IMG/VR virus record: IMGVR_UViG_3300036884_000521
Coordinates: 1-31,470 of that record
Origin: a virus
Reading direction: 5' to 3' (one strand)
DNA: 31,470 nt
Positions 8,426-30,420 of the stretch are shown piece by piece (the first letter of the stretch is position 1; each line of letters begins with the position of its first letter). Made by a program: the position numbers and the translations under genes. A model generated the notes under the pieces. It searched no databases and was not told the DNA's origin. It was given only the letters and a program-made list of their open reading frames with translations.

Positions 8426-11400
8426 ATGACTTACGATAACTTCTTAAAATTATTGGATGAATTTGAAGAAATACAATCATTTGCAAAGAAAATCGAATTT
8501 GCTAATCGATATTTTCAAAGAATAGGTAGTGGGTCAGGTAGAATTGTTTATGATATTGACGGCACTAAAGTTTTTAAATTAGCAAAGAATGCTAAAGGTG
8601 TTGCTCAAAATGAAGCTGAAATAAACATTGGTTCATATCATGACACCCACAATATAGTTACGAAAGTTTTAGAAAGTAATAATAATGGTAGTTGGATTAT
8701 TTCCGAAAAAGCAAAAAAAGTCAACGAAAGTAGAATTAAACAATTAACTGGCATTCCAAGTTTAAATGAATTATTTTATTTTCTTAGAAATCACGAAAAT
8801 AACATTAAAGGTGGTCATAATATTTTTGGTCTGGATACAGATGTTGAAGAATCATTAAATAATAATGAATTCGTTATTGAATTGCAAGACATAATGTCAA
8901 ATTATTCAATATCTGCTGGCGACTTAGGTAGACCAAGCACATATGGTGAAGTTCTTCGTGATGGTCAGCCAACAATTGTTTTAACTGATTATGGATTAAC
9001 AGGTGAAGTATATGATACTCATTATAATCCAAGTAGAAAGAAAAATGATCGTTATGGTTTCAAAATGTATGAATTATATAATAATAATGATGGCAACGAT
9101 GATATACTTGGAGATATGCCACCACAAGATGCAATAGATACACGTAGAGGCATGTGGGCGCAAATACCTTACAGCGTAGGCGATGGTAGTGGTGTAATAA
9201 ATGAAGGTTTTATATCATTTATACTTGACAGAGATAAGTATCCGACAAGAGTGTTGCCGAGCGCACCATATATAGTCGATGAATTTCATAATTGTGTAAA
9301 TAATATTGACGAAACTTTGAATCATGTTAAAAATAAAAAGAAATTTTATGAAAATTTATTGAAACTTCAAGAATATCTTATTGAACAAAAATTTTATGAC
9401 AGAGAACCTTTAGGTGAAATTGTATATTTAAAAGAAGATGGTAGTGCTTTATACTCTACTGATAATGCAATGGGACAAGATAATTTTCCTGTACATAATA
9501 ACATTGATACTTCACCTTTAATTAGAAATGATCTTGATGCAAATAGAGATAAGAATAATGAAGATTTAGAATATCATAATGTGGTGGGAGATGCTACGAA
9601 AGATCAATACATGTTGGATGAAAGACAATTATCTTCAATGGCTGGCAGCAGTACTGTAGAAGTAAAACAGAAATGCAGATTAGCGGGTAACGGTAACACT
9701 TCAACTGCATGCAATCAAGGAGACATTAGAAACTTGAATATCAAACCTCTTAAAGAAGAAATTTCAGCAAAGGAAGCATATACTGATGAAGGTGCATTGA
9801 AAACAGTTTTAAACGGAAAAAGAAAGATTGGTTTTGTTCATATAAATAAACCAATTGCTCAAAAATTAGAAAAACTTAAAATTGGTGTTATTCCAGTAAG
9901 AATGACATCGCAAAATACCATGACAGCAATAATATATCGTGATAAAGTAAAAGCATATTTATTGTATGAAATTGCTAAAAAGCATGGTGGATATTTAAAT
10001 GATAGAACTCCTGAAGAAGCACGTGAAATAGGACGATTGTTAGAATATAAAGAAGAGGATATTAACGAGTTTATTCATAAAAATTATGGTGTAATACCAG
10101 ATAAATCACCAGACGATTTTAATGATCTGGCTGAAAATGCTTCATTGGATTTTTGGGATTTGAATGAAGGAAATTTTCCAGCATTTGAAAAAGATATCCA
10201 GCAAGACCTTACAACCCATCAATTGGATAAAAAATATATAAGAAGTTATCAGGACGGAGAACACACATATAATGTATATGCTGTTAATGGTGATCAAGTT
10301 CGTGATAGTGGTTTTATTGAATGGGTAGATGGTGGTAATCATTGGGTTGATGCTGATTTACCGAAAAAAGAACAAAAATATGCAAAACATATTGGAGAAA
10401 ATGATTATTGGATTGATGATGTGTTTATGGTCAAACCAGCAGATTTTGAAGCAATATTATTACATGAGAGAACAGAAAGTTTTATTATAAGACATTATGG
10501 TTACGAATACGATGATGCTCATGAAATTGCAAATAAAGTTGAATTAATGTTCAGAAAAAAAATACCTGAAGGTGCAAATCGTGCTCTTGCTGAGAAAATT
10601 TATGATATATTTGTAGCTAATTTCAAACCAGAAAAAAGTAAACAGAAACATAAACCAGTAAATGAAAGCATTGCAGATGTGGCAGCAGAAAAACAATTTG
10701 GCATTCAGCATCCAGATACCGATTTTGAAACTCAATTCAGTAAAGAACAAAATATTGAAAATAAAGAAGAAATAATATATATAACATCTAATGATAGATC
10801 ATATAGTAATGTAGCAATGATAAAAAATCCAAAATCATGGCGTAATATTGGTAATAGTGTCAGAGGAGTTATAGATTCTACAGGAAATTTATATATTGAA
10901 TTAGTATCAAAACTAATACATGAAGATATTATTAATGAATTAAGTAGATTAAATCTTATTAAATACCAATCAGATTGGGATAAAAAACTCCCTGAAAGTT
11001 TTATTACTGTACAACGACATAGAAAAACAAATAATATTTTTCTTGGAGAATCTACTTCAACGATGTATCCAGATGAATTTAGACCTAAAACAAATTATTG
11101 GCAAGAAATTCCAAGTAATAATTTTGCAAAACCAGTTATTCAGAAATTTTTAGATAAAGCAAAACAAAAAAATCCATATATTAATTTTATTAATGAAACT
11201 ATTTATGAATATTATAAAAAAAATAAAGAAGAAGATATTTTTGAAAATGAAATATTAAATGAAGGACAGATAATGGCATTAAATTATCTTCCGTTTAAAG
11301 AAGATGTTGAAGAAGCTGGTGGTAAAATATATTCAGTTGGTGGTGCTGTCAGGGATGAAATTCTCGGTAAAGAATCCAAAGACTTAGATATTCTTATTAC

Positions 11401-12454
11401 TGGTGTGCCATTTGAAAAACTTGAAGAAATACTTAGTAAATATGGTGCTGTCAATGCAGTTGGCAAATCATTTGGTATATTAAAATTCAAACCAAAAGGC
11501 GCAACAGAAGATATTGATATTGCAATTCCACGTACCGAAACACCAACAGGTGAAGGTGGTCATCAGGGATTTGATGTTAAATCAAATCATGCTTTGCCAA
11601 TTGAAAAAGACCTTGAAAGACGTGATTTTACCATCAATGCAATTGCAAAAGATGCTGAAGGTAATATTGTTGACCCATTTGGTGGTCAAGAAGATTTAAA
11701 AAATAAAGTTATTAAGGTTGTTAACCCACAGGCATTTAGTGATGACCCACTCAGAATGTTGCGTGCTGTACAGTTTGCAAGTCGTTTTGGTTTTACTATT
11801 GACCCAGACACAATGAAAATGATTCAGGAAAATGCTGGTCGTGTAAAAGAAATTGCACCTGAGAGAATTTTGACAGAATTCGAGAAAATTGTCAGAAAAT
11901 GCAACATTTTGACAGGTGCAATACTACTTAATGAAACTGGTTTGCTTAAAGAAATATTTGGCAGAGGATTAAATTACGATTTTAGAAATACGAGAGAACC
12001 CTTTGATAAAGTTAGAACAATGGGAGAATTTGTTTATCTATTAAGTAAAAATCTTGTTAATAACCCTGCAGAGTTCTATAAAAATAATCTTAAAGGTGAC
12101 GAGAATTCATATAAAGAGATAAAGGCACTTCAATTAGCATATGAAAGTGGAGAGGCTACCAATTTAATCGAAGCAAGATCAATTGCACATAATATGTACG
12201 TGACATCTCCAACATCATTACAAAGTCAGATATTGCCAAATGTAATTAAAACTGCTGCACAAGAATTATTTGAAGGTAAGTATCCCAAAACTGTTAATGA
12301 ACTGGCAGTAAATGGTAATGATTTAATGGAACTTGGTTTACAAGGTAAAGCAGTTGGTGATATGCAAAAATCATTATTATTGAAGATTTATTCAAATAAA
12401 GTTATGAATAATAAAGAAGATTTACTATCTTTGGCGGGTCAAAATGGAAAATAA
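8426..12454 (+). CDS. Giant fusion: kinase-like domain, HExxE middle region, CCA-adding enzyme (1342 aa)
   Basis: Three recognisable regions. (1) Residues 30-200 are protein-kinase-like: a glycine-rich loop IGSGSGRIVYDIDG (34-38), a Lys in VFKLAK (K51), a Glu in a following helix (E63), and TDYGLT (D188) in the DFG position; a canonical HRD loop is not evident, so activity is open. (2) The middle holds LLHERTESF (H680, E681, E684) with AHEIA about 20 residues later (H699), a zincin-like pattern of unknown function. (3) Residues about 950-1342 are a complete class II CCA-adding enzyme/poly(A) polymerase: GGAVRD (972-977), DLDIL with D986 and D988, RRDFTINAIA (1065-1074), DPFGGQEDL, a LRAVQFASRFGF helix and the C-terminal NGNDLMELGLQGKAVG element. 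It would rebuild or extend tRNA 3' ends. L/I-N-E-G sites occur at E260, E581 and E946, the last four residues before an internal Met (ATG at 11273). Confidence 0.85.
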   Translation: MTYDNFLKLLDEFEEIQSFAKKIEFANRYFQRIGSGSGRIVYDIDGTKVFKLAKNAKGVAQNEAEINIGSYHDTHNIVTKVLESNNNGSWIISEKAKKVNESRIKQLTGIPSLNELFYFLRNHENNIKGGHNIFGLDTDVEESLNNNEFVIELQDIMSNYSISAGDLGRPSTYGEVLRDGQPTIVLTDYGLTGEVYDTHYNPSRKKNDRYGFKMYELYNNNDGNDDILGDMPPQDAIDTRRGMWAQIPYSVGDGSGVINEGFISFILDRDKYPTRVLPSAPYIVDEFHNCVNNIDETLNHVKNKKKFYENLLKLQEYLIEQKFYDREPLGEIVYLKEDGSALYSTDNAMGQDNFPVHNNIDTSPLIRNDLDANRDKNNEDLEYHNVVGDATKDQYMLDERQLSSMAGSSTVEVKQKCRLAGNGNTSTACNQGDIRNLNIKPLKEEISAKEAYTDEGALKTVLNGKRKIGFVHINKPIAQKLEKLKIGVIPVRMTSQNTMTAIIYRDKVKAYLLYEIAKKHGGYLNDRTPEEAREIGRLLEYKEEDINEFIHKNYGVIPDKSPDDFNDLAENASLDFWDLNEGNFPAFEKDIQQDLTTHQLDKKYIRSYQDGEHTYNVYAVNGDQVRDSGFIEWVDGGNHWVDADLPKKEQKYAKHIGENDYWIDDVFMVKPADFEAILLHERTESFIIRHYGYEYDDAHEIANKVELMFRKKIPEGANRALAEKIYDIFVANFKPEKSKQKHKPVNESIADVAAEKQFGIQHPDTDFETQFSKEQNIENKEEIIYITSNDRSYSNVAMIKNPKSWRNIGNSVRGVIDSTGNLYIELVSKLIHEDIINELSRLNLIKYQSDWDKKLPESFITVQRHRKTNNIFLGESTSTMYPDEFRPKTNYWQEIPSNNFAKPVIQKFLDKAKQKNPYINFINETIYEYYKKNKEEDIFENEILNEGQIMALNYLPFKEDVEEAGGKIYSVGGAVRDEILGKESKDLDILITGVPFEKLEEILSKYGAVNAVGKSFGILKFKPKGATEDIDIAIPRTETPTGEGGHQGFDVKSNHALPIEKDLERRDFTINAIAKDAEGNIVDPFGGQEDLKNKVIKVVNPQAFSDDPLRMLRAVQFASRFGFTIDPDTMKMIQENAGRVKEIAPERILTEFEKIVRKCNILTGAILLNETGLLKEIFGRGLNYDFRNTREPFDKVRTMGEFVYLLSKNLVNNPAEFYKNNLKGDENSYKEIKALQLAYESGEATNLIEARSIAHNMYVTSPTSLQSQILPNVIKTAAQELFEGKYPKTVNELAVNGNDLMELGLQGKAVGDMQKSLLLKIYSNKVMNNKEDLLSLAGQNGK

Positions 12455-14877: not shown

Positions 14878-16432
14878 AGCATTTGTTATAAGTAAAAGAA
14901 CAGACCAGAAGGGTAATTATATTGCATACGTTGACCCGAATAAACCAGAAAATAAAGAAACTTTTAAATATAAAGATATATTTAAGAATCATGGTGCTAG
15001 ATGGAATAACGACTATAAGTTTTGGTTTTGGTACATAGGTAAAACAAAAGATCAATGGCAGAATGTTTATAGCCATTTCATTGAACCTGCATTAAAAGAA
15101 GTACATGGATTAGAAAGTGCTCCAGAAGAAGAAAGTGCAGCAGCATTAACAACGTCATTGGATGCTCTTTTGTCAGAAATTACTGCAACACCTGCTACCA
15201 CAAATCCTGAAAGTGATACAGAACTTACGGCTGACGAAAAGAAAGCACTTATTGACAAATTAGGAAAATTTAAAGAAACTTTGGTCAATATTGACAGTGA
15301 TGAAGAGTTTAAAAAAACAATGCAAATTATTTTGTCTTTTAAAAATGCACAGGGACATTCATATAGCTTTATGAACACTATTTTGATTATGATTCAAAAT
15401 CCCAATGCAAAATTGGTTAAAAGCGAAATTAACTGGAATAGATTTAATAGAACTATTATTGACAAGAAAAACAGAATGATTGTACGTTCTCCAAGTAAAA
15501 GGGCAATGAGACCGTATTCAAAAAATGAAAAAGAAGTAATCACAGCAAAATTCTTAAAATCAGTCGATAAAAATAGTTATAATGAATTGGGTCCGGGTGA
15601 ACGTGAACGTCTTGGTATTCAGCTTCGTGGAGCATTTAGTGGTCATGATTTTGATTATACATTTGTATATGATGTTTCGAACACACAACAAATGGAAGGA
15701 AAAGAAAATTTTTTAGGTGATTATGAAAAACGTGATCAAATTAAATGGTTTGAAGAAAATATGATAAGTGAGGAAGTGAGACCAATTTATAAATCATTAC
15801 TTGATTTTGCTCAAGAAAATGGTATTAGAATAGAATTGGTTGATGAATTAAATGGTGCAAGAGGAATGAGTTCAAGCGGTATGATTCAACTTTTAAAAAA
15901 TGAAGGAAATGATGTTGGTTTAACAAAGACACTTGCACATGAAATTGCGCATGAATTGTTACATCAAAATTATGTAAAAAGTAAGAATTCAAAATATGCA
16001 CAATATTTTATAGGGAAATCCGAAGGTAGGGATGCAGTTGAACAGCAAGCAGAATTAACAGCATGGATGGTATTGGGAGCATTTAATTTTGATATGAAAA
16101 CCACTTCTTTAAATTATGCAGCATTATGGGGAGCAGATAAAGATGCAATGATCAGGGTATTTGATACTGTATCTAGTGTTGTAAGCATGTTGGTGGATTA
16201 TATCAGCAGGAAAAATAAAACTAATGCAAATACTGCTGCACCACAAAACAATACAAACACTACTGCACCACAAGCAGCACCACAAAATGAAGCACTTGAC
16301 AATACAGCAAGAAGAGTTACTCCAATGGATGTGGCAAGATTTGTTGGTGTTGAAAGAGAATATCAGGACGTTTTAAATAAAAATAAAGGAGAACTGGTAG
16401 AAAATTTCTATAGTTTATTGAAAAAATTATGA
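14861..16432 (+). CDS. ArdC-like antirestriction protein with HExxH metallopeptidase domain, 523 aa
   Basis: Order of parts: a leader MKTLNEAF (E6, an L-N-E-A site); a small domain (about 28-80) with NHGARWNNDYKFWFWYIG, the kind of GA+W...K.W unit also found beside other DNA-related proteins; a low-complexity linker; an ArdC-type N domain (about 125-290) with HSYSFMNTILIMIQNP and KSEINWNRF; and a zincin domain with LAHEIAHELLH (H360, E361, H364) and a following EQQAE (E394/E398) as third ligand. ArdC proteins bind single-stranded DNA and protect incoming DNA from type I restriction; the metallopeptidase may add proteolysis. After an Ala/Asn/Thr/Pro-rich linker the C terminus carries VTPMDVARFVGVEREYQ, shared with the small upstream gene. 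It is followed by the 2H gene with an ATGA overlap. Confidence 0.8.
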   Translation: MKTLNEAFVISKRTDQKGNYIAYVDPNKPENKETFKYKDIFKNHGARWNNDYKFWFWYIGKTKDQWQNVYSHFIEPALKEVHGLESAPEEESAAALTTSLDALLSEITATPATTNPESDTELTADEKKALIDKLGKFKETLVNIDSDEEFKKTMQIILSFKNAQGHSYSFMNTILIMIQNPNAKLVKSEINWNRFNRTIIDKKNRMIVRSPSKRAMRPYSKNEKEVITAKFLKSVDKNSYNELGPGERERLGIQLRGAFSGHDFDYTFVYDVSNTQQMEGKENFLGDYEKRDQIKWFEENMISEEVRPIYKSLLDFAQENGIRIELVDELNGARGMSSSGMIQLLKNEGNDVGLTKTLAHEIAHELLHQNYVKSKNSKYAQYFIGKSEGRDAVEQQAELTAWMVLGAFNFDMKTTSLNYAALWGADKDAMIRVFDTVSSVVSMLVDYISRKNKTNANTAAPQNNTNTTAPQAAPQNEALDNTARRVTPMDVARFVGVEREYQDVLNKNKGELVENFYSLLKKL

Positions 16433-16815
16433 GTAATATTTCCTATAGTGCTATAGTTCTTGATGATATTTCGAGACAAAGATTAATCAACAGGTTTAAA
16501 TCAATAATTCCAGAAGAATTTGAAATTATTGCGCATCATATGACCATTAACTTAGACGAAATTGACCCTGAATATGAAAAATATCTTGGTTTAGCAGTAC
16601 GTTTAACTGTTAACGATATTGCTATGAATGATAAAGTAATTGCAGTGGGTGTATCATCAGAAATTAAAAGTGTTAATGCTAAATCACATATAACACTGGC
16701 AGTAAATCGTGTAAATGATGGTAAACCAGTAATGTCAAATAATCTAACTAATTGGGAAAGATTACGAAGACCATTGTCCTTAAGGGGAAAAGTAACACAG
16801 GTAGAATATAATTAA
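16429..16815 (+). CDS. 2H phosphoesterase (cyclic phosphodiesterase-like), 128 aa
   Basis: Two H-x-T-h motifs, H37-M-T-I and H87-I-T-L, are 50 residues apart, the defining pair of the 2H phosphoesterase superfamily, and the flanking strands fit (YSAIVLDD at the start, DKVIAVGVSS between, LSLRGKVTQVEY at the end). 2H enzymes open or hydrolyse 2',3'-cyclic phosphates on RNA or related cyclic nucleotides. The overall look (SAIVLD, HHMTI, KSHITLAVN) is closest to the cyclic-phosphodiesterase part of fungal-type tRNA ligase and the Swiss-Army-Knife RNA repair set. The T4 anti-CBASS enzyme Acb1 has the same fold type, so degradation of a defence signal is an alternative. It shares four bases with the ArdC-like gene and is followed after two bases by the next gene. 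Confidence 0.78.
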   Translation: MSNISYSAIVLDDISRQRLINRFKSIIPEEFEIIAHHMTINLDEIDPEYEKYLGLAVRLTVNDIAMNDKVIAVGVSSEIKSVNAKSHITLAVNRVNDGKPVMSNNLTNWERLRRPLSLRGKVTQVEYN

Positions 16816-16817: not shown

Positions 16818-17405
16818 ATGAATACAATTGAATATGTTGCTGAAAAACAGCACAAGGATTACGAAAAAGGTAAAAAATCTCAAAAATTGTTCATGGATTT
16901 AATGGGAAAAAATGGGTATCGTTGTTATAGTGCAGACACTTTTCAAGACACAAACGAACATTGGGATGTAGTAACAGTTAAGGACACTGAAAATGGCGGT
17001 AAAATTTTTGAACGTTTTGATGTTAAAGGATTAAAAGAATGTGTTAGTGAAGGATTTGAATGGGTTGAATTGATGACTGTTGACGGAAGAAAAGGTTGGT
17101 TATATTCTGAATACATGAATAGTCTTGCTTTTGAACTTAACGATTATTTTATTTTAATTAAAAGAATAGAATTAGTTCCGATTATAGAAACAAATATTGC
17201 CATAATGGATAAATTAGATGAAGAAGCAGGAGAACGTATACCATTGTTGCGTGTAATAAAAGATGGATTACTGAATTATCAAAGATATAGTAGAATATTA
17301 TGGGGAAAAAACGATGTTGTAGTTAAAGCACCAATTAAAGATTTTGAACATTTAACTTTTGCAAAACTATATAAAAAAGATGGTAAATTAGAAATGATAA
17401 AATGA
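16818..17405 (+). CDS. Putative PD-(D/E)XK nuclease-like protein, 195 aa
   Basis: An N-terminal helix (EKQHKDYEKGKKSQKLFMDLMG) is followed by NEHWDVVTV (D50) and, about 18 residues on, FERFDVKG (D68, K70), then GFEWVELM. This order of helix, Asp strand and D-x-K strand is typical of PD-(D/E)XK nucleases. The C-terminal half has RIELVPIIETNIAIMDKLDEEAGERIPLLRV and a strand-rich end (NDVVVKAPIKDFEHLTFAKLY). I do not recognise the specific family, and the fold call rests on the short motif only. It sits between two RNA-end-processing enzymes and overlaps the second by four bases, so cutting or binding of RNA or tRNA is as likely as DNA cleavage. Confidence 0.6.
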   Translation: MNTIEYVAEKQHKDYEKGKKSQKLFMDLMGKNGYRCYSADTFQDTNEHWDVVTVKDTENGGKIFERFDVKGLKECVSEGFEWVELMTVDGRKGWLYSEYMNSLAFELNDYFILIKRIELVPIIETNIAIMDKLDEEAGERIPLLRVIKDGLLNYQRYSRILWGKNDVVVKAPIKDFEHLTFAKLYKKDGKLEMIK

Positions 17406-17947
17406 TAACAAGACTATGTGCATTTGATTTTGATAGTACTTTAATTTCAAGTCCAATGCCTGAAACTGGTAAAATTGAATGGGAAAAGTATTACAACAAA
17501 CCGTTTCCATACAAAGGCTGGTGGGGCAGACCTGAGAGTTTGGATTTGAATGTTTTTGATGTTAGAACATTTCCAAAGGTACAAAATATTTTAAATAAAG
17601 ATGTTTCAACACCTGACACATATACAATTGTATTAACTTCAAGACAGGAAAAATTGCGTCCTTTACTTCAAAAAATATTGGATTTTAATAATATTCGTGT
17701 TGATAAACTTGACATGAAACGTGATGAAAGAACAAAGGGTCAAAAAATTCTTGATTATATTAAAAAATTTCCTGAATTAATTGAAATAAATGTTTATGAG
17801 GATAAAGAAGATGAAATAAATTCATATAAAGAAATTAAAAATCAAATTCCCGAAAACATAAAATTTAATATTTACGTTGCAAATCAAGGTATATTAACAT
17901 CAATTATTAATGAAGAAATTGAAAAACTATTTTATGAAAGAAAATAA
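17402..17947 (+). CDS. HAD phosphatase of the Swiss-Army-Knife RNA repair type (HAD_SAK-like), 181 aa
   Basis: HAD motif I is at the start, AFDFDSTL (D9, D11). A family-typical stretch follows: SSPMPETGKIEW and GWWGRPESL, the pattern of the HAD domain in Swiss-Army-Knife RNA repair proteins. Motif II is VLTSR (about 77-81) and the acidic motif IV is VYEDKEDE (about 138-145); K108 or a neighbour in the MKRDERTKG stretch would be motif III. In that family the HAD unit is thought to remove phosphates from RNA ends, and here the gene is in the same coupled series as a 2H phosphoesterase, which handles cyclic phosphates. It ends 13 bases before the lipoprotein gene, and the cassette ends here by function. 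Confidence 0.8.
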   Translation: MITRLCAFDFDSTLISSPMPETGKIEWEKYYNKPFPYKGWWGRPESLDLNVFDVRTFPKVQNILNKDVSTPDTYTIVLTSRQEKLRPLLQKILDFNNIRVDKLDMKRDERTKGQKILDYIKKFPELIEINVYEDKEDEINSYKEIKNQIPENIKFNIYVANQGILTSIINEEIEKLFYERK

Positions 17948-19106: not shown

Positions 19107-19121
19107 TTTTAAAATACTCTT

Positions 19122-19129
19122 GTATTTAT
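19122..19129 (+). promoter_or_regulatory. GTATTTAT motif, candidate phage late promoter (copy 6)
   Basis: In the gap after the lipoprotein gene, 36 bases before the ATG at 19166. It supports 19166, not the downstream TTG at 19203, as the original start of the following gene. Confidence 0.6.
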
Positions 19130-19165
19130 GAAATTAAAAATATAATTTTACAAAAATTAAAAACT

Positions 19166-19640: not shown

Positions 19641-19648
19641 AATAATAT

Positions 19649-22600: not shown

Positions 22601-23017
22601 AACACTGGTGGCGTTGGTTATGGTGATGAAGTTGTATTTACAACATTACCTTCTGCAGTATTAGCAACAATTACCACATCTATTTCAGAAACTGTTGTAT
22701 GGACAGCAGAATTTGGATTTGGTGGTACTTCATCAATAAAATTAAATTGTACTGGTGAAATTACAAATACAGGATATACTCCAATTACTGCAAAAGGTTT
22801 TTGTTGGGGAACAACAGCAAATCCTACTGTAACTGCTAATCGTTATGTTTATAATTCAAGTCTTAATACAGGTACGGGCATATTTACAGCATTTATAAAC
22901 AGTTTATCGCCAAATAATACATATCATATACGAGCATTTGCAAAAAATAAAATTGGTGTTGCATACGGAAATGATATTACTGTAACAATACCAGTATATA
23001 CAATTACTGGAAATTAA
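19649..23017 (+). CDS. Large exported adhesin-like protein: beta-helix plus Fn3-like GVCW repeats and a BIG2-like domain, 1122 aa
   Basis: A Sec signal peptide opens the protein (MKKFLTILMFLFVSLTINATEYY, cut near residue 20). Residues about 20-300 are a right-handed beta-helix of the choice-of-anchor type: GGKDTNTGLNGFPFATL, later NVIIYNCKFTNF, and the typical end SPAIGKG ... PPDIGAYGY. Seven Fn3-like repeats follow, starting near residues 305, 506, 607, 708, 809, 906 and 1004; each has TSGGN, GVCW, a GL-x-x-NT-x-YH-x-RAYATN strand pair and YG-x-x-FTT. Repeats 2 to 4 are exactly 101 residues each. Between repeats 1 and 2 lies a BIG2-like Ig domain (VTSVIPSNATNQTVTWSV). No C-terminal sorting domain is visible. 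It starts 8 bases after the pseudogene. It could be a surface adhesin made by the infected cell, or a fibre-like protein; the signal favours the former. Confidence 0.82.
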   Translation: MKKFLTILMFLFVSLTINATEYYVATPANGGKDTNTGLNGFPFATLKYASLHVPAGSNTIHVGAGVFNEGINRVKFAEGVTLVGEGIGIAPTKIISSYVGDSLTLGSFVFSSSAQGTNGNQSVSNIWFDGSLTTANIAILVEKRSNVIIYNCKFTNFKYSAITMIGGADMITEPTTYATGNQIYNDTINNCTGYYGSKTLGAIEIVGQSGIKIYNNRFDQKQRVVGNEALIQGVSTFNKLMDVHDNYVNKLLLSNVVIPTDFHLQSTSPAIGKGLTLGNMTTDAGGNPIKNPPDIGAYGYYAVVPTVSTVAATNISNTTATSGRLFVADGGSNIAMSGVCWNKTGNPTISDSHTSDGAISPFGVPNTISNITGLAQGTLYHVRAYATNATGTGYGNDLIFTTSGSSFILVTGLSINTIPVNSIHTISTYHGILQLGVTSVIPSNATNQTVTWSVTNGTGSGSITSSGLFTAITDGNVVVYATANDGSGVRDNFIITISNQIVITYPTVTTTAISNIVQTTATSGGNVTSDGGATVTAKGVCWSTNINPTIANSKTSDGTGTGIYTSSLTGLVANTLYHVRAYATNSAGTAYGSDITFTTLSIPVVLPTVTTTVITNIAQTTAMSGGNVTSDGGASVTAKGVCWSINVNPTTSNSLTNDGTGIGIYVSSLNGLLPNTLYHLRAYATNSIGTAYGNDITFTTLSIPVVLPTVTTTTVTSIGNTTAISGGNVTADGGATVTAYGVCYSTTSYPSLINPHTTDGSGMSSFVSSIIGLSANTNYHVRAYATNNAGTAYGADIAFTTLIVNSTIPIVSTFATTLIVKTTATSGGNVISDGGSPVTTRGVCWNTTGSPTIFDSRMGDGIGTGSFILNLTGLTKSTVYYIRAYATNSVGTAYGNILTFKTDDVPVLTTTSVYAIQQTTAKSGGNIIADDGFPVAVRGVCWSINPNPISTDAHGTNGVGMGIYPINISGLLPNTTYYARAYAINTGGVGYGDEVVFTTLPSAVLATITTSISETVVWTAEFGFGGTSSIKLNCTGEITNTGYTPITAKGFCWGTTANPTVTANRYVYNSSLNTGTGIFTAFINSLSPNNTYHIRAFAKNKIGVAYGNDITVTIPVYTITGN
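20561..23000 (+). repeat. Array of seven Fn3-like GVCW protein repeats
   Basis: Units of about 290-310 bases start near 20561, 21164, 21467, 21770, 22073, 22364 and 22658; the units starting at 21164, 21467 and 21770 are each exactly 303 bases. The 21164 and 21467 units are the most alike, including a shared linker LSIPVVLPTVTTT, so the array has probably grown by recent unit duplication there. Confidence 0.85.
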
Positions 23018-23055: not shown

Positions 23056-23877
23056 ATGATTGACATGAGATATAAACCACGTTTTCTTCCACAAGTGAGT
23101 GCACCATATAAAATTGTGTTGCAAAAACTTGAAGAAGAAGGTGTGAAATATGAATTAGTCGAAGTAGACCCAAATGATCTGGAAGCGTCACAAGGTGTTA
23201 CATTTTCTGATGAAGTTGAAAAATGTGAACTCAGTGATAATAATCCAATTTGGATTGCTGATGAAAATAAAGTTTGCGATGGTCATCACAGAATGGTAAA
23301 AGCCTTACTTGATGGTGTTAATCTTAAAGCAGTAAAAATAGGATTGAACGAAAAAGATGCTTGTAGGGTATTAAATAAAATAGAAGATATTTATGAGTAT
23401 CAGCAAAAAAGTGGATTAGAAGAAGTTGAAATGCAGGATACAATTAATTATTATGGTGATGATGAAAACCAATTTTTAAATTCTCTGGAAGAAGATAATT
23501 TAAGCATAGAAACTCCATCAGGAGAAACGAAAACAAATCAAAAAACGATTATTGCATATCGAAAAGAACCAATAAAAGAAAATTCTGCTGTTGGAAATTT
23601 CTTTTCATTAAAACCTATGGAGGGATTTGGTAAATATGAAATTGAATTTGATAATCTTTTGGACTTACATTCTATGGGCGTTACATATAAAGACGGGCAA
23701 GAACCAGCAGATATTCTGTCAAAGATTTGGTTTCCTCATATAAATTTTGAAAAACTAAGTGAACAATATGATATGCCTTCAGCTAATCTTAAAAATAAAG
23801 CAATTGCAGAAAAAGCAATGAGTTTAGGATATGATGGCATTAAACATGACGATAAATTAATACAAGGATTAAAATAA
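23056..23877 (+). CDS. ParB-like domain fused to an ADP-ribosyltransferase-like domain, 273 aa
   Basis: Residues about 18-105 look like a ParB/sulfiredoxin-type domain: YKIVLQKLEEEGVKYELVEV, then IWIADENKVCDGHHRMVKALLDG with DGHHR at 75-79, the nucleotide-binding signature position. After an acidic linker (about 110-160), residues 163-273 resemble the ADP-ribosyltransferase barrel seen in phage proteins: TIIAYRKEP (R169), GNFFSLKP (S about 184), a long insertion, and a C-terminal AEKAMSLGYDGIKHDDK. The usual catalytic E-x-E is not evident; the KHDDK end is at about its place, so activity is uncertain. T4 injects ADP-ribosyltransferases (Alt) that modify host proteins. An I-K-E-N site (E about 172) is inside the domain and probably not a cleavage site. 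A coupled structural gene follows. Confidence 0.6.
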   Translation: MIDMRYKPRFLPQVSAPYKIVLQKLEEEGVKYELVEVDPNDLEASQGVTFSDEVEKCELSDNNPIWIADENKVCDGHHRMVKALLDGVNLKAVKIGLNEKDACRVLNKIEDIYEYQQKSGLEEVEMQDTINYYGDDENQFLNSLEEDNLSIETPSGETKTNQKTIIAYRKEPIKENSAVGNFFSLKPMEGFGKYEIEFDNLLDLHSMGVTYKDGQEPADILSKIWFPHINFEKLSEQYDMPSANLKNKAIAEKAMSLGYDGIKHDDKLIQGLK

Positions 23878-23885: not shown

Positions 23886-24275
23886 ATGAATACATACAAA
23901 ATTACAAACCTAACCAATACCGCAGGAAAGCGTGATTTCAAATTCAATTCACCATTGAATATTGATTATATTGATAAGATGATCAAAAAAACGATTACTA
24001 TACAACCCGGGGCAAGTCTTTACCTAACAGTACCTTCTTTACCAATATCAGTACATAAATTAAGAGCAAAAAATTTAATTAGTGTTGTTGAGGTAAGCGC
24101 AAAAGAATTAGCAGACTCTATGGGTGTTGTTAAATCCAAACCAACACCAGCTACTATAAAAGCACCTTTAGACAAAGAAGTTACTGTAAAAGTACCTTCA
24201 GTCGAAAAACTTACAGAAGTACCTTTAACTGAAGAAGAAATTACAAAAAGATCAAATAAAAAAAAGAAAGATTAA
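23886..24275 (+). CDS. Hypothetical, probably structural protein, 129 aa
   Basis: Family not recognised. The N-terminal 75 residues are strand-rich (YKITNLTNTAGKRDFKF, KTITIQPGASLYLTVPSLP) and look like a small beta-sandwich or decoration-type domain. A short helix (SAKELADSMGV) and a Pro/Lys/Val-rich extended segment with a repeated K-V-P-S/APL character follow, ending in a basic tail (RSNKKKKD). No signal peptide. It begins 8 bases after the ART-like gene and is followed by a terminator, so the two genes form one unit behind promoter copy 7. A small virion protein such as a head- or tail-surface protein is likely by composition only. Confidence 0.7.
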   Translation: MNTYKITNLTNTAGKRDFKFNSPLNIDYIDKMIKKTITIQPGASLYLTVPSLPISVHKLRAKNLISVVEVSAKELADSMGVVKSKPTPATIKAPLDKEVTVKVPSVEKLTEVPLTEEEITKRSNKKKKD

Positions 24276-24301
24276 CACGTTTTTTTCTCAGAAGAATATT
24301 G

Positions 24302-24330
24302 ATGCCAGCATTTTGTTGGCATTTTTTTTT
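24302..24330 (+). terminator. Rho-independent terminator
   Basis: A 9-bp stem ATGCCAGCA (24302-24310) with TGTTGGCAT (24314-24322), one G-U pair and a three-base loop, followed by eight more T. A second TGGCAT copy at 24339-24344 could pair with the same arm as an alternative. The 142-base gap 24276-24417 holds this, promoter copy 8 and no gene that I can see. Confidence 0.8.
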
Positions 24331-24370
24331 AAAAAGACTGGCATCTTTGATGATTTTCAGTTATTTTTAC

Positions 24371-24379
24371 GTATTTATA
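24371..24379 (+). promoter_or_regulatory. GTATTTATA motif, candidate phage late promoter (copy 8)
   Basis: Lies 40 bases downstream of the terminator and 39 bases before the glycosyltransferase start at 24418. Confidence 0.65.
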
Positions 24380-24417
24380 ATTAATTACATAATTTTATAA
24401 TAATTTATAAACAAAGC

Positions 24418-25800
24418 ATGGACGGAAAAATTAGAGTTTTATTTTATAACTTAGATTCAGCAGGGGTAAATTACTTCAGAACATTAACACCAGCAATGGA
24501 ACTTCAGAGAAATCATTCAGACGAATTTTATGTTGAAATTAATCCGCAAATAGATTTTAATGACCCAAAATATGTTGACTATTTGAAAACATTTCACATA
24601 ATACATTATCATCGTCAATTCTTAGGTGAAACAAAAGAAATGTTAAAATTAGCAACCGAATTAAGAAAATCAGGAGTAATATTGATGGTTGATATTGATG
24701 ACTATTGGGTATTACATAAGAAACATCCGTTCTATTCTTTGAATGCTGAAAAGAAAATGCATATTCCAATGTTGGAAAATCTTAAGATTGCTGATTATGT
24801 TACAACAACAACTGATTTATTTGCGGATGAAATTCGTAAAATAACTGGCAAGGATAATGTTGGTGTGTTTTACAATTCAATTGACCCCACATGGATGAAA
24901 CAATTTCAGGATAACAGAAAACCTGACCCAGATGGATTTGTAAGAATTACATATGCTGCAGGGTCAAGTCACATGGCTGACATGGAACAACTTGAAGGAG
25001 TGTTTAACGTATTATATAATGATTCACAATTAAAAGATAAATTCAAAGTTATTCTTGCTGGTTGGGATACTGAAGGTAATACTACCGATGTAACATTTAA
25101 TCAAGAATTTAGTGACATATTACAAAAGAAAAAATTATGGACACCACAGATTGTTAAAGCGATTAATAGGTCAAGAGGTGATGTGGATAAAATCCCCAAT
25201 TTACCAGCAGATTTGAAAGAAAAGTACAGAGGCAAGGTTTTTAATCAGCAACAAAGAGATATTAAATCAATTGAAAGTGTTTATTTAATATATGAAAAAA
25301 TTTTTACAGATAATTATCATATGATAAATAATCCAGATTATGTGCAATGGTTAAAAAATTATGAAAGAAATGTTAAATACGATAACGAATTTAATTATGC
25401 TAGACGTTGGACTGAAAAAGCAAATACATATGCCAAAGTATTGGATGAAACCGATATTGTTATTGCTCCGCTTGCTGATAATCCATTCAACAGAATGAAA
25501 TCAAATTTGAAACAGGTAGAATGTTGGACAAGAAAACTTCCAATAATATGTTCAGACATGCCACCATATAATATAGATGGTAAACACATGAAAAACTGTA
25601 TTCTTATTCCAACTGAAAAGAATGCTCGAAAATATTGGCAGAAATATCTCAAGAAACTCATATTAGATGCTGATCTACGTAAACAACTTGGCGAACAGCT
25701 ATATGAGGACTTCAAGGATGAATATAACTTGGCAACGGTTACAAAAAAGCGTGCTGACTTTTATAAAGCAGCAGTTGCTAAAACATTAGTACTAGTCTAA
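24418..25800 (+). CDS. GT-B fold glycosyltransferase (GT4-like), 460 aa
   Basis: The N-terminal half begins KIRVLFYNLDSAGVNYFR and continues with IIHYHRQFLGETKEML and LMVDIDDYW, then ADYVTTTTDLFADEI and GVFYNSID, the acceptor-side pattern of GT-B enzymes. The C-terminal half has ITYAAGSSHMADM, KFKVILAGWDT and, near residues 350-385, IVIAPLADNPFNRMKSNLKQ followed by VECWTRKLPIICSD, where the N-R-x-K-S-x-x-K-x-x-E element binds the nucleotide sugar as in GT4 enzymes. The insertion at about 230-310 is longer than usual. It has no signal peptide and is cytosolic. T4-like phages glycosylate DNA bases; glycosylation of a virion protein is also possible given the baseplate genes downstream. Coupling with the coiled-coil gene is likely (11-base gap). 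Confidence 0.85.
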   Translation: MDGKIRVLFYNLDSAGVNYFRTLTPAMELQRNHSDEFYVEINPQIDFNDPKYVDYLKTFHIIHYHRQFLGETKEMLKLATELRKSGVILMVDIDDYWVLHKKHPFYSLNAEKKMHIPMLENLKIADYVTTTTDLFADEIRKITGKDNVGVFYNSIDPTWMKQFQDNRKPDPDGFVRITYAAGSSHMADMEQLEGVFNVLYNDSQLKDKFKVILAGWDTEGNTTDVTFNQEFSDILQKKKLWTPQIVKAINRSRGDVDKIPNLPADLKEKYRGKVFNQQQRDIKSIESVYLIYEKIFTDNYHMINNPDYVQWLKNYERNVKYDNEFNYARRWTEKANTYAKVLDETDIVIAPLADNPFNRMKSNLKQVECWTRKLPIICSDMPPYNIDGKHMKNCILIPTEKNARKYWQKYLKKLILDADLRKQLGEQLYEDFKDEYNLATVTKKRADFYKAAVAKTLVLV

Positions 25801-25811
25801 AATTAAAAAAC

Positions 25812-26234
25812 ATGAAAAAAAGAAAAACAATTAAACAGCTTGAAAAAAAACAAGCAAAAAAAGAGAAAAAAATTTATTCCAAAGTAAAAAAAGAATTTAA
25901 CAGAAGAATTGAAAAACAGAAAAAAAACAATCCATATTTTAGTAAAGAGGATAATAAAAAAAACAATCAACTTGTTGATGCAATCACCAAATCTGTTATT
26001 CTTAATAAAAGAATGCTAGGCAGGGATAATTATAATTTAAAAAGATGGCAAGAATCATATTTTCAAGAATTATATACTGAGTTCAGAAAACTTATTGAAA
26101 AATATAATAATGGACTTCAGGTTAAAGCAGAAGAATTAAGTACTAAAATTTCTGATTTGGAAATTAAAAAGAAAACACTTCAATACGATGTAAAAGAACT
26201 TGAAACAAAAAAGAAAATATTAGTTAATGTTTAA
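25812..26234 (+). CDS. Lysine-rich coiled-coil protein, 140 aa
   Basis: Family not recognised. Residues 1-45 are almost entirely Lys, Glu and Gln with heptad-like hydrophobics (KKRKTIKQLEKKQAKKEKK), a strongly basic helix. A middle part (50-85) with KRMLGRDNYNLKRWQESYF may be a small folded or binding segment. The last 55 residues are a second coiled coil (ELSTKISDLEIKKKTLQYD). No signal peptide or membrane segment. The stop overlaps the following start by 8 bases. It probably works as a dimer or trimer in tail or baseplate assembly, or as a chaperone; the N-terminal basic helix could bind nucleic acid. Confidence 0.7.
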   Translation: MKKRKTIKQLEKKQAKKEKKIYSKVKKEFNRRIEKQKKNNPYFSKEDNKKNNQLVDAITKSVILNKRMLGRDNYNLKRWQESYFQELYTEFRKLIEKYNNGLQVKAEELSTKISDLEIKKKTLQYDVKELETKKKILVNV

Positions 26235-27138
26235 TGTTTTAAAAAAAATATATTTCTGGTGTTATCTTAAGATATATATCATCTTGATGAACATTGGTAT
26301 TATGATCTACAGAGCAGAAGTGGATGCTCAAGCAGACCCCAATGATATAAAAGAAGGCGATAAAAAAATTCAGAGAATGCTTCATAGAAATCAGACTCTT
26401 GAAAAATTCTATGCTGGCAAAACTGATGAAAAATATGTCAGAGAATATTATGAAATATTAAAAAAAGCAGATAGATTTATTCGTACAGCAACCCCATATC
26501 AAATGGCAATTGCAGCAGACAAACATGGTAGTTCTTATGCTCAAGCAGACCCAACAAATGGTAGAAGATATGAACATTTTGGTTTTTATGATGAAAAACA
26601 TAAACATGCTGGTAAAACAATTGGCGAAGTTTTAGTTCAAGAATATGAAGAAAGAAGACTCAAAGATGATGACTATGAATTACTTGGTATTTATAACAAC
26701 GAGCCAATTGAAGTAGGATTAGCAAAAGTTATGAATGTGGTTAAAAAAATTGATGAAAATGATTTGGATTCTCAGTATGAAGTAAAGGATATGACTGAAA
26801 AATCCAAGACTTTTGAATTTCCAATTAAAATTGTTCGTGAAAACGAAAATGTGGTCAATAAAATTGAACAACTTACTGAATTTTTACATATTAAAAAAAT
26901 TGGCTTTGATTATCGACAGTTAGAATTTTTAATACCATTAAAGTTCAAAACAAGTAATTATGATGAAGACACTGATGTTTTTAAAGAATTGATCAATATT
27001 AAAGAAGTTTTTCTCCGTAATGATTATGGCGAATTAACTGGTTATGGAATTATGAAATTTATAAAAAGAATACAACTAAATAATACTCATGATGTGTTTA
27101 AATTCGAAGCAATTGAAATGCAGAATATGAAAATTTAA
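26227..27138 (+). CDS. Hypothetical virion-region protein, 303 aa
   Basis: Family not recognised. The first 25 residues from ATG 26227 are hydrophobic and aromatic (KKIYFWCYLKIYIILMNIG), unlike the rest; later ATGs at 26287 and 26302 (MIYRAEVDAQADPND) would remove this part and are plausible starts. The body has a helical section (DKKIQRMLHRNQTLEKFY, VREYYEILKKADRFI), a Gly/His/Asp-rich middle (YEHFGFYDEKHKHAGKTIGE), and a strand-rich C-terminal part ending in FKFEAIEMQNMKI. It sits between the glycosyltransferase unit and the baseplate genes, so a tail or baseplate role is likely. If the long form is right, the protein would be membrane-anchored. Confidence 0.7.
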   Translation: MFNVLKKIYFWCYLKIYIILMNIGIMIYRAEVDAQADPNDIKEGDKKIQRMLHRNQTLEKFYAGKTDEKYVREYYEILKKADRFIRTATPYQMAIAADKHGSSYAQADPTNGRRYEHFGFYDEKHKHAGKTIGEVLVQEYEERRLKDDDYELLGIYNNEPIEVGLAKVMNVVKKIDENDLDSQYEVKDMTEKSKTFEFPIKIVRENENVVNKIEQLTEFLHIKKIGFDYRQLEFLIPLKFKTSNYDEDTDVFKELINIKEVFLRNDYGELTGYGIMKFIKRIQLNNTHDVFKFEAIEMQNMKI

Positions 27139-27149
27139 TACTAAAAAAT

Positions 27150-27602: not shown

Positions 27603-27614
27603 AAACAATTATTT

Positions 27615-28085: not shown

Positions 28086-28097
28086 TTATTAATTCAG

Positions 28098-28131: not shown

Positions 28132-28139
28132 ATTTATTA

Positions 28140-28148: not shown

Positions 28149-28163
28149 GAAAAATCTTTTATA

Positions 28164-28562
28164 ATGGCTTCATATAATATTACCTTTCCGTTAAATGATG
28201 ATGTCAGCACAAACTCATATTTTTTAATGAGTAAAGTGACTAAAGACGCATTCAGTTCTGACTTGTTAATTTTATTAGTAACACAAAAGGGTGAAAGATA
28301 TTATGAACCAGATTATGGTACTAATTTATTAAAATATATATTCGAACCGAACGATAATTTAAATGCAGATGATATTGAAAAGGAAATTAAAACAACAGTA
28401 TCAACATATATACCAGCACTTACAATTAATAGTGTAACATTTAACTGGCATACCGATGATGAAGCAAATTCAATATCAGAAAATCAAGTAAATGTCAACA
28501 TTAAATTTACTTTTACTGAAGATGCTTTTACTGAAAACGGTGAATTAGATTTAAACTTTTAA
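28164..28562 (+). CDS. Baseplate wedge protein, gp25/GPW-like
   Basis: The size (132 aa) and pattern match the gp25/W family: after a 30-residue lead (VSTNSYFLMSKVTKDAFSSD) comes LLILLVTQKGERYYEPDYGT followed by NLLKYIFEPND, where GER, the P-x-Y-GT-x-L turn and FEP are the conserved core. Then helix DIEKEIKTTVSTYIPAL and strand NSVTFNW. In T4 gp25 is a small wedge component that joins gp6 and gp53 at the sheath end of the baseplate and nucleates sheath assembly. It is the first gene of its unit and is followed after 10 bases by the gp6-like gene, an order common in contractile phages. Confidence 0.9.
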   Translation: MASYNITFPLNDDVSTNSYFLMSKVTKDAFSSDLLILLVTQKGERYYEPDYGTNLLKYIFEPNDNLNADDIEKEIKTTVSTYIPALTINSVTFNWHTDDEANSISENQVNVNIKFTFTEDAFTENGELDLNF

Positions 28563-28572
28563 AACATAAAAT

Positions 28573-30420
28573 ATGGCAAACAATTTAACTACAAACATAA
28601 TTCAATACGGAAGCAGAACATTTGGCGACATACGTACCGACCTCATAGCATATATCAGACAAGCATATCCAGAGATTTTATCTGATTTTACTGATAGTTC
28701 AATTGGTGCAATAATGATTGACCTTAATGCTGGTGTTACTAATAACCTTTCAATTAATACCGATAGAGCATTTCAGGAAACACAATTAGAATATGCACAA
28801 CAAAGAGCATCAATATTAAATATTGCAAAAAATATGGGATTTAATATTCCAGCAAGAAGACCTTCAGTTACGGTAATTGATTTTACTGTAACAATTCCTG
28901 TTCTTGGTGACAAACCAGATGCATCATATTATCCTCAATTACAGGCAGGTGCACAAGTGCTTGGCGGAGGAAAAGTGTTTGAAACACAAGCAATTATTGA
29001 TTGGAGTTCACCAATAAGTAATTTGGGCGACCCTAATCGTTCGATTATTCCTAATACTGATTCAAACGGTATTATTGTTAATTATAGTGTAACAAAAAGA
29101 GAAGTGGTTATTAATGGTTCTACAAGTATTTTTAAAAGAGCAATTAGTTCAACAGATGTTATACCATTTTTTTCTATAACATTACCAGACCCAGACGTAC
29201 TTGAAATAGATAGTATTATTTTATTGGAGGGCACTAATTATTCAAGTAATCCGACTGCTGCAGATTTTGCTACGGCAACAAATAAATATTATGAAGTAGA
29301 TTATCTTGCACAACAAAGAGTATTCGTTGTAGACACAAGTAGTTCACAACCAAATACAAATACGGACGGATTAAAAGCAGGTACATGGATAGATGTAACA
29401 AAAAAATTTATAAAAGAATTTGATATAAACGGTTATTGTAAAATAATATTTGGTTCGGGTGATGCAGATATTGATGCATTTAAATCGGGTTTTCTTAAAG
29501 TAGGTGTAAGCAATCAGTATTTTCTTGAAAATTTTTTAAACAACACAGCGTTGGGTGAAAAATTATTGGCAAATTATACTTTATTTATTCAGTATAGAAC
29601 TGGTGGTGGTAGTAATTCGAACGTAGGAGCAGGTACTCTAACACAACTTGGTAGTTATAATTTAACTGTTCAAGGTTCACGTCAGGATTATAATCAGACA
29701 GTACAAAGAAGTTTAACTGTAAATAATCCAATTCCAGCAATTGGCGGTAACGATGGATTAAGCATTGAACAAATAAGAGAATTAATAAAATATAATTTTA
29801 GTAGTCAAAACAGGGATGTAAGTTTGGTTGATTATTTATTACAACTCTATAAAATGCCCGGGCAGTTTGGTTCTCCCTTCCGTGCTAATGCAATGAAAAT
29901 AAATAATAAAGTTGTTATTTCAACATTAGGTATTGGGTCAGATGGCAAACTTGACAATACAAGTACCACATTAATGAACGAAAACATTAGTGAATATCTT
30001 AGTCAATTTAGAATGCTTAACGATTATGTTGAAGTAACTAACGGTAAAATATTTAATTTAGCTTTTGATGTTGATGTGTATGTTGAAAATATTACCGATA
30101 ATCAAGTTGCAAATAGTATTATAACACTTGTCAGAAATTATTTGGACATAAATAATTACGAAATGAATCAGGATTTATTTTTAGGTCTGCTTCAACGTGA
30201 AATACTTAGTGCGAATGGAGTTATTAATGTTATTGATATTAAAGTTTATAACAGAGTAGGCGGACAATATTCAAATAATGTTATTTCTCAAGCTGTGAAT
30301 CCAAGCACTGGCGAGATAACGATTATTAACAATACAATTCATTCAACCGAAGATAGTATGTTTGAAATAAAATATCCAGAAAAAGATATCACAGTTTATT
30401 TAAGAAAGAGTACAGGATAA
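28573..30420 (+). CDS. Baseplate wedge protein, gp6/baseplate-J-like, 615 aa
   Basis: The N-terminal 100 residues have the family signature: GDIRTDLIAYIRQAYPEI, DFTDSSIGAIMIDLNAG, NLSINTDRAFQETQLEYA, then ILNIAKNMGFNIPARRPS. A strand-rich middle with QLQAGAQVLGGGKVFETQ follows, then the conserved baseplate-J-type stretch PAIGGNDGLSIEQIRELIKYNFSSQNR with SLVDYLLQLYKMPGQ, and a C-terminal domain with FNLAFDVDVYVENITD. T4 gp6 dimers form the inner ring that holds the wedges together and drives the shape change on contraction; it is about 660 aa, close to this length. The stop overlaps the next start by one base (TAATG). Confidence 0.9.
   Translation: MANNLTTNIIQYGSRTFGDIRTDLIAYIRQAYPEILSDFTDSSIGAIMIDLNAGVTNNLSINTDRAFQETQLEYAQQRASILNIAKNMGFNIPARRPSVTVIDFTVTIPVLGDKPDASYYPQLQAGAQVLGGGKVFETQAIIDWSSPISNLGDPNRSIIPNTDSNGIIVNYSVTKREVVINGSTSIFKRAISSTDVIPFFSITLPDPDVLEIDSIILLEGTNYSSNPTAADFATATNKYYEVDYLAQQRVFVVDTSSSQPNTNTDGLKAGTWIDVTKKFIKEFDINGYCKIIFGSGDADIDAFKSGFLKVGVSNQYFLENFLNNTALGEKLLANYTLFIQYRTGGGSNSNVGAGTLTQLGSYNLTVQGSRQDYNQTVQRSLTVNNPIPAIGGNDGLSIEQIRELIKYNFSSQNRDVSLVDYLLQLYKMPGQFGSPFRANAMKINNKVVISTLGIGSDGKLDNTSTTLMNENISEYLSQFRMLNDYVEVTNGKIFNLAFDVDVYVENITDNQVANSIITLVRNYLDINNYEMNQDLFLGLLQREILSANGVINVIDIKVYNRVGGQYSNNVISQAVNPSTGEITIINNTIHSTEDSMFEIKYPEKDITVYLRKSTG

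Follow-up and report, generated by a model that had tools for sequence, protein, structure and literature searches.

A fixed fusion of a ParB-type domain with a probable ADP-ribosyltransferase-fold domain in a lineage of very large tailed phages

An open reading frame (ORF) at positions 23056..23877 of the virus record IMGVR_UViG_3300036884_000521 (plus strand, ATG start, 273 amino acids) encodes a ParB/sulfiredoxin domain fused to a domain that very probably has the ADP-ribosyltransferase (ART) fold. The record, analyzed over its full 31,470 bases, is referred to below as the window, and the gene as the ParB-ART gene. The gene itself, the fusion, its conservation, the gene order around it and the ParB homology are directly supported. 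With a probability of roughly one-half, we propose that ParB-ART is a particle-carried or late ART effector equipped with a nucleotide-responsive ParB module. A first-pass annotation of the sequence had described the gene as an uncommon joining of a DGHHR-type ParB/sulfiredoxin-like domain to an ART-like one, had suggested that the ParB part could bind a nucleotide, and had placed the gene in an ADP-ribose economy with neighboring enzymes. Most of this description held up; the economy found no support.

A fixed two-domain gene under selection

A single-protein query of viral_contigs returned 47 loci related to the ParB-ART gene, and an alignment of 36 hand-chosen rows (A1) returned 95 relatives, of which 80 were retained. 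The resulting script alignment contained 84 proteins including that of the window, 69 of them distinct. Residue counts given below refer to these 69 rows, among them the window protein and the truncated rows L025 and L043; L027 (in-frame stop), L001 (a copy of the window), L088 and repeats of identical proteins were removed before counting. When the window gene was compared with those of four relatives, the whole-gene ratios of nonsynonymous to synonymous substitution rates (dN/dS) were 0.13-0.24. The relatives in viral_contigs, the 69 distinct proteins and these ratios show that the ORF is a real gene under selection. By half, dN/dS was 0.14-0.31 for ParB and 0.06-0.18 for the ART-like part, the value of 0.06 being rough, with dS >1 in one ART comparison. 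Mean pairwise identity was 51% in the ParB half, 45% in the linker and 62% in the ART-like half. The C-terminal half is therefore the more constrained of the two. In the relative L027, the ParB-ART gene (8001-8830) is interrupted early by an in-frame stop and the remaining frame is open; intact copies occur elsewhere.

The contigs of relatives are up to 365 kb long, and the gene was single-copy in each of 10 relatives' records searched whole. Its lineage consists of very large tailed phages, apparently uncultured and represented here by metagenomic records only. Querying genome_contigs with the C-terminal alignment gave 273 pattern matches and one relative, in a Bacteroidota metagenome-assembled genome (MAG).

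The fusion is old and fixed in this lineage. When loci were scanned by the ParB half only, 74 were found, and all 73 ParB-signature ORFs among the 73 newly fetched loci carried GNFF, a motif of the C-terminal half. The sole pattern of that scan was LNKI[QE]DI, so the figure of 73/73 is blind to ParB halves that lack it, and many of the loci lay in contigs already counted. Distant ParB relatives in other phages are standalone. In the records of phages immuto, Mel-JY01 and PTm1 and two uncultured huge phages, the three ParB-half matches that were read through lacked the GYDG/GNFF half. Flavobacterium phage immuto also has, at about 7696-7887 of NC_055915.1, a weak match to the C-terminal half (E 0.016) whose frame contains a stop.

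Beyond the lineage the exact form is rare, in keeping with the first-pass annotation. With the full protein as query, 16 phage records were matched, through the N-terminal half only; a tblastn search of 50,697 phage records with the C-terminal half returned nothing at E<=10, and a full-length relative compared with 72,556 plasmid records found nothing at E<=0.01. Literature searches on ParB, ADP-ribosyltransferases and phages brought up no report of this two-domain fusion. As a theme, the pairing of ParB with ART is already known, since DdrB-like ParB and ART domains are described as hubs of polyvalent proteins (PMC5512222).

An AF2 model of the whole protein, built from 36 rows, had a mean predicted local distance difference test score (pLDDT) of 75.7 and a predicted template modeling score (pTM) of 0.44. 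Two parts of it are folded, and residues 118-160 (23407..23535) between them form a linker of low confidence, with pLDDT <50 at 119-136 and 148-158. The N-terminal part, residues ~8-117 (23077..23406), is a ParB/sulfiredoxin domain by both structure and sequence. Its VIA matches, at Z 4.4-7.8, were to structures of ParB, sulfiredoxin and free serine kinase; the best row was 5k5d_C (Z 7.8, root mean square deviation [rmsd] 4.1, 89 residues aligned). Residues 10-125 matched phrog_2859 at E 5.4e-7. A profile of the ParB half from 34 hand-chosen rows (A3) recovered ParB proteins that stand alone in phages, with E values from 2.8e-9 to 2.9e-16: ACP17 (2.9e-16), Marzo_058 (6.8e-16), Acinetobacter SH-Ab 15599 (6e-14), Sajous1 gp192 and bering gp064 (5.8e-12), GR28A (4.9e-11), JA15 (1.3e-10), phiMAM1 (8.5e-10) and AS-zj (2.8e-9). 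Against 1628 background ORFs, the only matches of this profile at E<=10 were frames of the standalone ParB genes. Standalone relatives match phrog_2859 as well, and by these sequence criteria the ParB half belongs to that widespread phage family. No match to the DdrB-like ParB family PF18763 was found at E<=1 for the window protein, nor was one found in the 36 members.

Profile comparison places the N-terminal half in one family with the standalone proteins Menderavirus Marzo_058, ACP17 ASD50458, Kuttervirus bering gp064 and Sajous1 gp192, and MPQI/LPQV, a Gln after L-x-x-x and DG[HS]HR are common to both. These four proteins have 133-195 amino acids and are not matched by the ART-half profile. 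In the window protein the last motif reads DGHHR (residues 75-79, 23278..23292), a P motif of GxxR type in the terminology of PMC12704722. D75, G76 and H77 are kept in 69/69 rows and H78 in 68; R79, the Arg of the motif, is present in 55 and is otherwise K (8), T (2), S (2), Q (1) or N (1). A second conserved motif, LNKIED (residues 106-111, 23371..23388), has L106 and N107 in every row and Q at position 110 in 60. Nucleotide binding by the ParB half is plausible by analogy, given the GxxR motif and the CTP, ATP or GTP binding reported for several fusions of the ParB fold (PMC12704722). The specificity of ParB folds for nucleoside triphosphates (NTPs) is poorly predicted by sequence or AlphaFold3, according to the same paper.

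The ART-like half

Residues ~161-273 (23536..23874) form the second domain. Folded alone from 61 rows (A2, from which L043 and rows >=93% identical in the C-terminal half had been removed), it gave a pLDDT of 87.8 and a pTM of 0.77. VIA was run with this 122-residue model over the 207 top Foldseek-ranked chains. The best match was 6kyf (Z 5.8, rmsd 4.8, 102/122 residues), and 8dwq (AcrIF11Pae2) also covered the domain (Z 2.8, rmsd 5.9, 107 aligned). Both 6KYF and 8DWQ are AcrIF11 proteins, which are experimentally proven ARTs (PMC12421852). For the whole model, a diphtheria-toxin homologue was matched in its catalytic domain, 9qe9_B (PMC13171429), at VIA Z 4.2 over 93 residues. The C-terminal part called ART-like by the first-pass annotation thus has a predicted structure closest to an ART, and we regard the ART fold as very probable. 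Chain 9k3a_B from the cyanophage A4 pre-ejectosome gave Z 5.2 (rmsd 5.6, 103 aligned); it was not counted as an ART because the 103 residues are spread over 315 target residues and the paper search made on 9k3a_B found nothing. The remaining 15 rows align <=50 residues.

At the sequence level, the likeness to ARTs is concentrated in one segment. The ART-PolyVal model PF18760 found no match in the window protein or in 36 members, and hhalign with either 3 or 26 ART-PolyVal rows aligned the GYDGI segment alone. In ungapped comparison, the GYDGI-containing segment was the best in 19 of the 26 ART-PolyVal rows, or in 21 when a distant member was used, compared with 2 and 8 for a control with the ParB half of two members. 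Rows in which <=2 of 100 shuffles reached the score numbered 5 and 6 of 26, versus 0 and 1 in the control.

Positions were matched across families by strand order, and the assignments that follow are putative. Strand 1 (163-169) closes with Y168-R169. R169 (23560..23562) is present in 69/69 rows, and the aligned ART-PolyVal rows have His there; R-S-E ARTs have the Arg of their active site on strand 1, where R169 stands. GNFF (residues 180-183, 23593..23604, strand 2) is invariant, F182 and F183 each being kept in 69/69. GYDGIK (residues 258-263, 23827..23844) contains the motif common to ART-PolyVal domains. The strand before the last starts with D260-G261, and D260 is found in 68 rows, the remaining row being truncated. 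F182/F183 and D260 sit in strands that match the aromatic and Asp strands of ART-PolyVal, D260 being a candidate for the Asp of that family. N181, N200, W225 and A254 are kept in every row. The loop D265-D266 (23848..23853) precedes the last strand, and position 266 is D in 55 rows, E in 3, N in 8, S in 1, K in 1 and a gap in 1. With an Arg of R-S-E-clade type, no ExE and a frequent loop acid, the family looks from these alignments like an R-F-(D) variant of the ARTs. Definitions of Tox-ART-HYD are given in PMC3482391.

AcrIF11 is the closest fold to the C-terminal half and is likewise a small phage ART. Its key residues are H-F-H-D, and its structure is most conserved in the loop bearing D115/E116 (PMC12421852). 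Loop D265-D266 is a candidate counterpart, with an acidic residue in most ParB-ART members. The family differs from AcrIF11 in the Arg of strand 1, and AcrIF11 was not matched when PDB sequences were searched by profile.

Gene order and the company of the ParB family

Synteny was counted over 68 distinct loci of 85, or fewer where the flank was short. In the window, the genes at 8426..12454, 16429..16815 and 17402..17947 and those described from 23886 to 30420 are on the plus strand. Immediately downstream of the ParB-ART gene lies a small conserved gene of unknown function (23886..24275; <=1.5 kb downstream in 60 of 66 distinct loci), followed by a glycosyltransferase-like gene (24418..25800; phrog_7162, E 2.2e-33) that is found <=2.5 kb downstream in 66/66. 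Another conserved gene of unknown function (26227..27138) is present in all 57 distinct loci. A gp25-like baseplate wedge gene (28164..28562; PF04965, E 6.7e-13) follows at <=7 kb in 54/57, and a gp6-like baseplate wedge gene (phrog_219, E 5.1e-16) lies beside it at 28573..30420. Phage ARTs of the Alt clade are also reported close to baseplate genes (PMC5512222).

Upstream of the gene are a gene for a large multidomain protein with a C-terminal CCA-adding enzyme (8426..12454; in 55/57, of varying length among relatives), a 2H phosphoesterase-like gene resembling tRNA-ligase CPD domains (16429..16815; PF08302, E 6.4e-5; in 26/57) and a gene for a HAD_SAK_1-like protein (17402..17947; PF10307, E 8.2e-8; in 49/57). 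A family B DNA polymerase is encoded upstream as well. The idea that the phage both makes and removes ADP-ribose-type marks, which the first-pass annotation had drawn from the 2H gene and a Nudix gene in the window, found no support: the 2H gene resembles tRNA-ligase phosphodiesterases (PF08302 being its best Pfam match) and stands beside RNA-repair-like genes, the gene two further on matching the HAD_SAK_1 domain found in RNA-repair proteins, and none of the Nudix models points to ADP-ribose in particular. Among the 25 NCBIfam models listed, the Nudix protein was under every cut-off, with dihydroneopterin-triphosphate (2e-12, the best), NAD(+) diphosphatase (9.4e-11), the AdpP family (1.1e-4) and ADP-ribose diphosphatase (0.012), values that are compatible with a role in ADP-ribose metabolism without demonstrating one.

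Several further features of the window were noted. The Nudix domain, at 5692-6465, has an N-terminal extension of ~120 residues and a match to the PADLOC candidate PDC-S07 (E 3e-15). By our own reading, the protein of 8426-12454 has an N-terminal kinase-like motif; right after it, 12444-13385 encodes a homing-endonuclease-like protein with a zinc finger and NUMOD3. The 2H and HAD_SAK_1-like genes (16429-17947), with the upstream CCA-adding enzyme, resemble an RNA-repair set. The block between the HAD and ParB-ART genes (17910-23017) encodes secreted-looking, FN3-containing tail-like proteins and has an upstream homologue in 1/57 loci. A QueC-like gene at 469-1326, possibly for DNA-base modification, adjoins the DNA polymerase.

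ART-PolyVal domains also occur elsewhere in some relatives' records. In the record of L054, one (PF18760, E 2e-12) lies inside the large upstream protein, ~4 kb ahead of ParB-ART, and such domains were present in 4/9 relatives' phage records, all over the cut-off (two of them just with in-frame neighbors). The MAG with the ParB-ART relative has ART-PolyVal on contigs other than that of the ParB-ART gene. ART-PolyVal was found in 3/296 genomes sampled from its phylum, the MAG included, a count of genomes that is not like-for-like with one of phage records.

Members of the ParB family have recurrent company in other phages. Sajous1 gp192, whose gene was located in the Sajous1 record (the A3 match given above), was detected with 11 spectra in CsCl-purified virions (PMC10892097). 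The ParB protein of Marzo, P0002, matched 434 phage records. A phrog_832 "RNA polymerase ADP-ribosylase" gene lies ~500 bp or less upstream of the ParB gene in all 12 records found in both listings: bering (L207:5075-6399, close upstream in this Salmonella phage), Cba120, SS9, PM10, KE31, Det7, pSC20, Se_AO1, SeKF_64, selz OL964737, BRM 13313 and FSL SP-029. The second and third genes upstream of ParB in ACP17 are those for nicotinamide phosphoribosyltransferase and NMN adenylyltransferase/Nudix. The 484-kb phage LR756508.1 (L215:1438-3366) encodes a protein in which a ParB domain of this family is joined to a cytidylyltransferase-like one (GRFQPFHRGH; PF01467, E 9e-9), ParB_N being matched at E 2e-4, under its cut-off; the ParB and cytidylyltransferase-like domains match phrog_3041 "cytidyltransferase" at separate places. 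This recurrence with NAD- and nucleotide-handling enzymes is a suggestive pattern, not a statistical one.

The phrog_3041 family itself seems to contain the ParB and cytidylyltransferase pairing. Marzo_056 (L049:5296-5796), labeled "ADP ribosyltransferase" in its record, was rejected as an ART; it resembles cytidylyltransferases and NMN adenylyltransferases (PF01467, E 5.1e-10). The 7.9-kb "Enterococcus phage" record OR844945.1 contains, at 6897-7343, a Kuttervirus ParB gene with 100% identity and is possibly a mislabeled or contaminating contig.

A candidate effector and its alternatives

We propose that ParB-ART combines a phrog_2859-type ParB domain, a flexible linker and a minimal ART domain of AcrIF11- or diphtheria-toxin-like shape. 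It would be synthesized late, with the baseplate genes, and would be carried in or on the virion through its ParB half. After entry, or late in the cell, it would catalyze NAD+-dependent ADP-ribosylation of a host or phage target, and the ParB half would bind a nucleotide or a partner and so position or gate the ART half. The location of the gene among tail genes suggests virion carriage and action on the host.

Known systems share parts of this arrangement. Polyvalent proteins, with 2-15 domains per viral or plasmid polypeptide and early-phase delivery into the host, have DdrB-like ParB and ART-PolyVal domains as network hubs; DdrB-like ParB often adjoins virion genes, and processed DdrB is found in the P1 head (PMC5512222). 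ParB-ART fits the broad definition of a polyvalent protein with two effector-type domains, but its halves match neither PF18763 nor PF18760 and its architecture is compact and constant in relatives. T4 Alt/ModA/ModB and phrog_832 are phage ARTs near baseplate genes (PMC5512222) with an Arg at the first active-site place, as for R169; they belong to the R-S-E clade and lack a ParB domain, whereas ParB-ART lacks ExE. In the ParB-CTPase-fold fusions of PMC12704722, an NTP-binding fold is likewise joined, in phages, to a domain of effector or enzyme type. That survey was built on PF02195, which is absent from the families matched by 36 ParB-ART members, and its main text does not contain the stem "ADP-ribos".

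A number of observations weigh against the proposal. The ART fold is rated as very probable rather than shown because the best Z of 5.8 is under the safe level of the tool (a match at Z <8 may be a common arrangement) and Foldseek with the C-terminal domain alone gave nothing significant (best E 0.56). The unrelated chain 8hnp_B (Z 3.0, 48 aligned) ranked over 8dwq, and 9qe9_B was absent among the rows when VIA was rerun with the C-terminal domain only. In the window protein this half is without a match in Pfam, NCBIfam or PADLOC and without a convincing one in PHROG; phmmer and hmmsearch comparisons of the domain with PDB sequences gave 6 matches at E<=10, the best at 0.24 and none an ART. 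The hhalign alignment to 26 ART-PolyVal domains had a probability of 20% (E 0.0011) over 16 columns around GYDGI. ExE is the catalytic Glu motif of R-S-E ARTs; it is absent near the last strand in all 69 rows, where the window reads LIQGLK and Q270 is found in 65/69. The strand-1 His is likewise missing from every row, with Arg instead, and the loop acid D/E266, present in 58/69, is not universal. The concern of the first-pass annotation, that NAD-site residues might be lacking, is borne out for the His and the ExE and not for R169, F182/F183 and D260, which are kept, or for the acid at 266 in the rows that have it. NTP binding may not be universal in the family, since the Arg of the GxxR motif is absent in 14/69 rows. 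The virion detection concerns one distant standalone ParB relative, not a fused one, and the Sajous1 authors state that low spectral counts can be contaminants (PMC10892097). The Kuttervirus neighborhood of ParB with an ART represents one lineage, and most ParB-gene records are without that ART, the bering ParB gene matching 372 records versus 76 for the phrog_832 ART. No annotated ART was present in the stretch shown for JA15, SH-Ab 15599, AS-zj, phiMAM1, GR28A or Sajous1.

The most serious alternative, which we consider possible and less probable than our proposal, is that the ART fold was kept and the activity lost. The C-terminal domain would then be a binding or structural module, perhaps one holding NAD or a nucleotide, in an assembly or baseplate-associated protein. 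The missing canonical His and ExE, together with Q270 in the last strand, would fit such a loss; the invariant N181, N200, W225 and A254 would suit a binding surface, the synteny with baseplate genes is core-like, and two records label ParB relatives as structural proteins. On the other hand, R169, GNFF and D260 are invariant at ART active-site places, apart from the truncated row for D260, and the loop acid is present in most members. Departure from the canonical residues is also compatible with catalysis, as AcrIF11 itself deviates from H-Y-Y-E yet is active (PMC12421852).

It is rather improbable that ParB-ART is an AcrIF11-like anti-defense ART that modifies one defense protein, a possibility that is partly a special case of our proposal and overlaps with it in probability. 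The nearest solved structures are AcrIF11 proteins, the domain is similarly small, and AcrIF11, which ADP-ribosylates Cas8f/Csy1, is reported to modify Cas8 alone in the cell (PMC12421852). A fixed, syntenic gene with low dN/dS lineage-wide would be unlike a typical anti-defense accessory gene.

Slightly less probable again is that the C-terminal domain is no ART at all and that the structural match reflects a common arrangement of strands and helices. The nonsignificant Foldseek result, the Z of <8 and the restriction of the sequence-profile link to GYDGI would all fit. Against it, the small set of rows spanning the domain includes two ART families, AcrIF11 (6kyf and 8dwq) and the diphtheria-toxin homologue (9qe9), and in ungapped comparison ART-PolyVal rows prefer GYDGI more often than in the ParB-half control.

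Tpt1/KptA is an NAD-using relative of the ARTs, with the residue pattern R-H-R-R. That the ART-like domain acts as such a 2'-phosphotransferase in an RNA-repair set is very improbable: the neighbors matching tRNA-ligase CPD, HAD_SAK_1 and the CCA-adding enzyme, with the HAD gene upstream in most loci, would suit it, but no KptA family was matched in Pfam or NCBIfam, the R-H-R-R pattern is not evident, and the 2H neighbor is present in fewer than half of the loci (26/57).

A more specific form of the proposed effector can be put forward only tentatively and is unlikely as a whole: phrog_2859-type ParB domains of large phages would serve as nucleotide-reading adaptors for NAD-linked enzymes, here as part of a particle-delivered, ParB-gated, unusual Arg-type ART of AcrIF11 shape, with ADP-ribosylation switched or positioned by nucleotide binding. 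No description of ParB-type gating of ARTs was found in the literature searched on ParB, ARTs and phages. If this form is true, a ParB-gated ART would represent a control principle that we have not found described for these enzymes. The fixed fusion joins two themes, the growing recognition of ParB folds as NTP-binding modules of general use and that of phage ARTs as enzymes that modify the host or its defenses. It offers a case in which control of ADP-ribosylation by nucleotides can be tested, and a candidate effector whose gene is kept next to the baseplate genes of very large phages.

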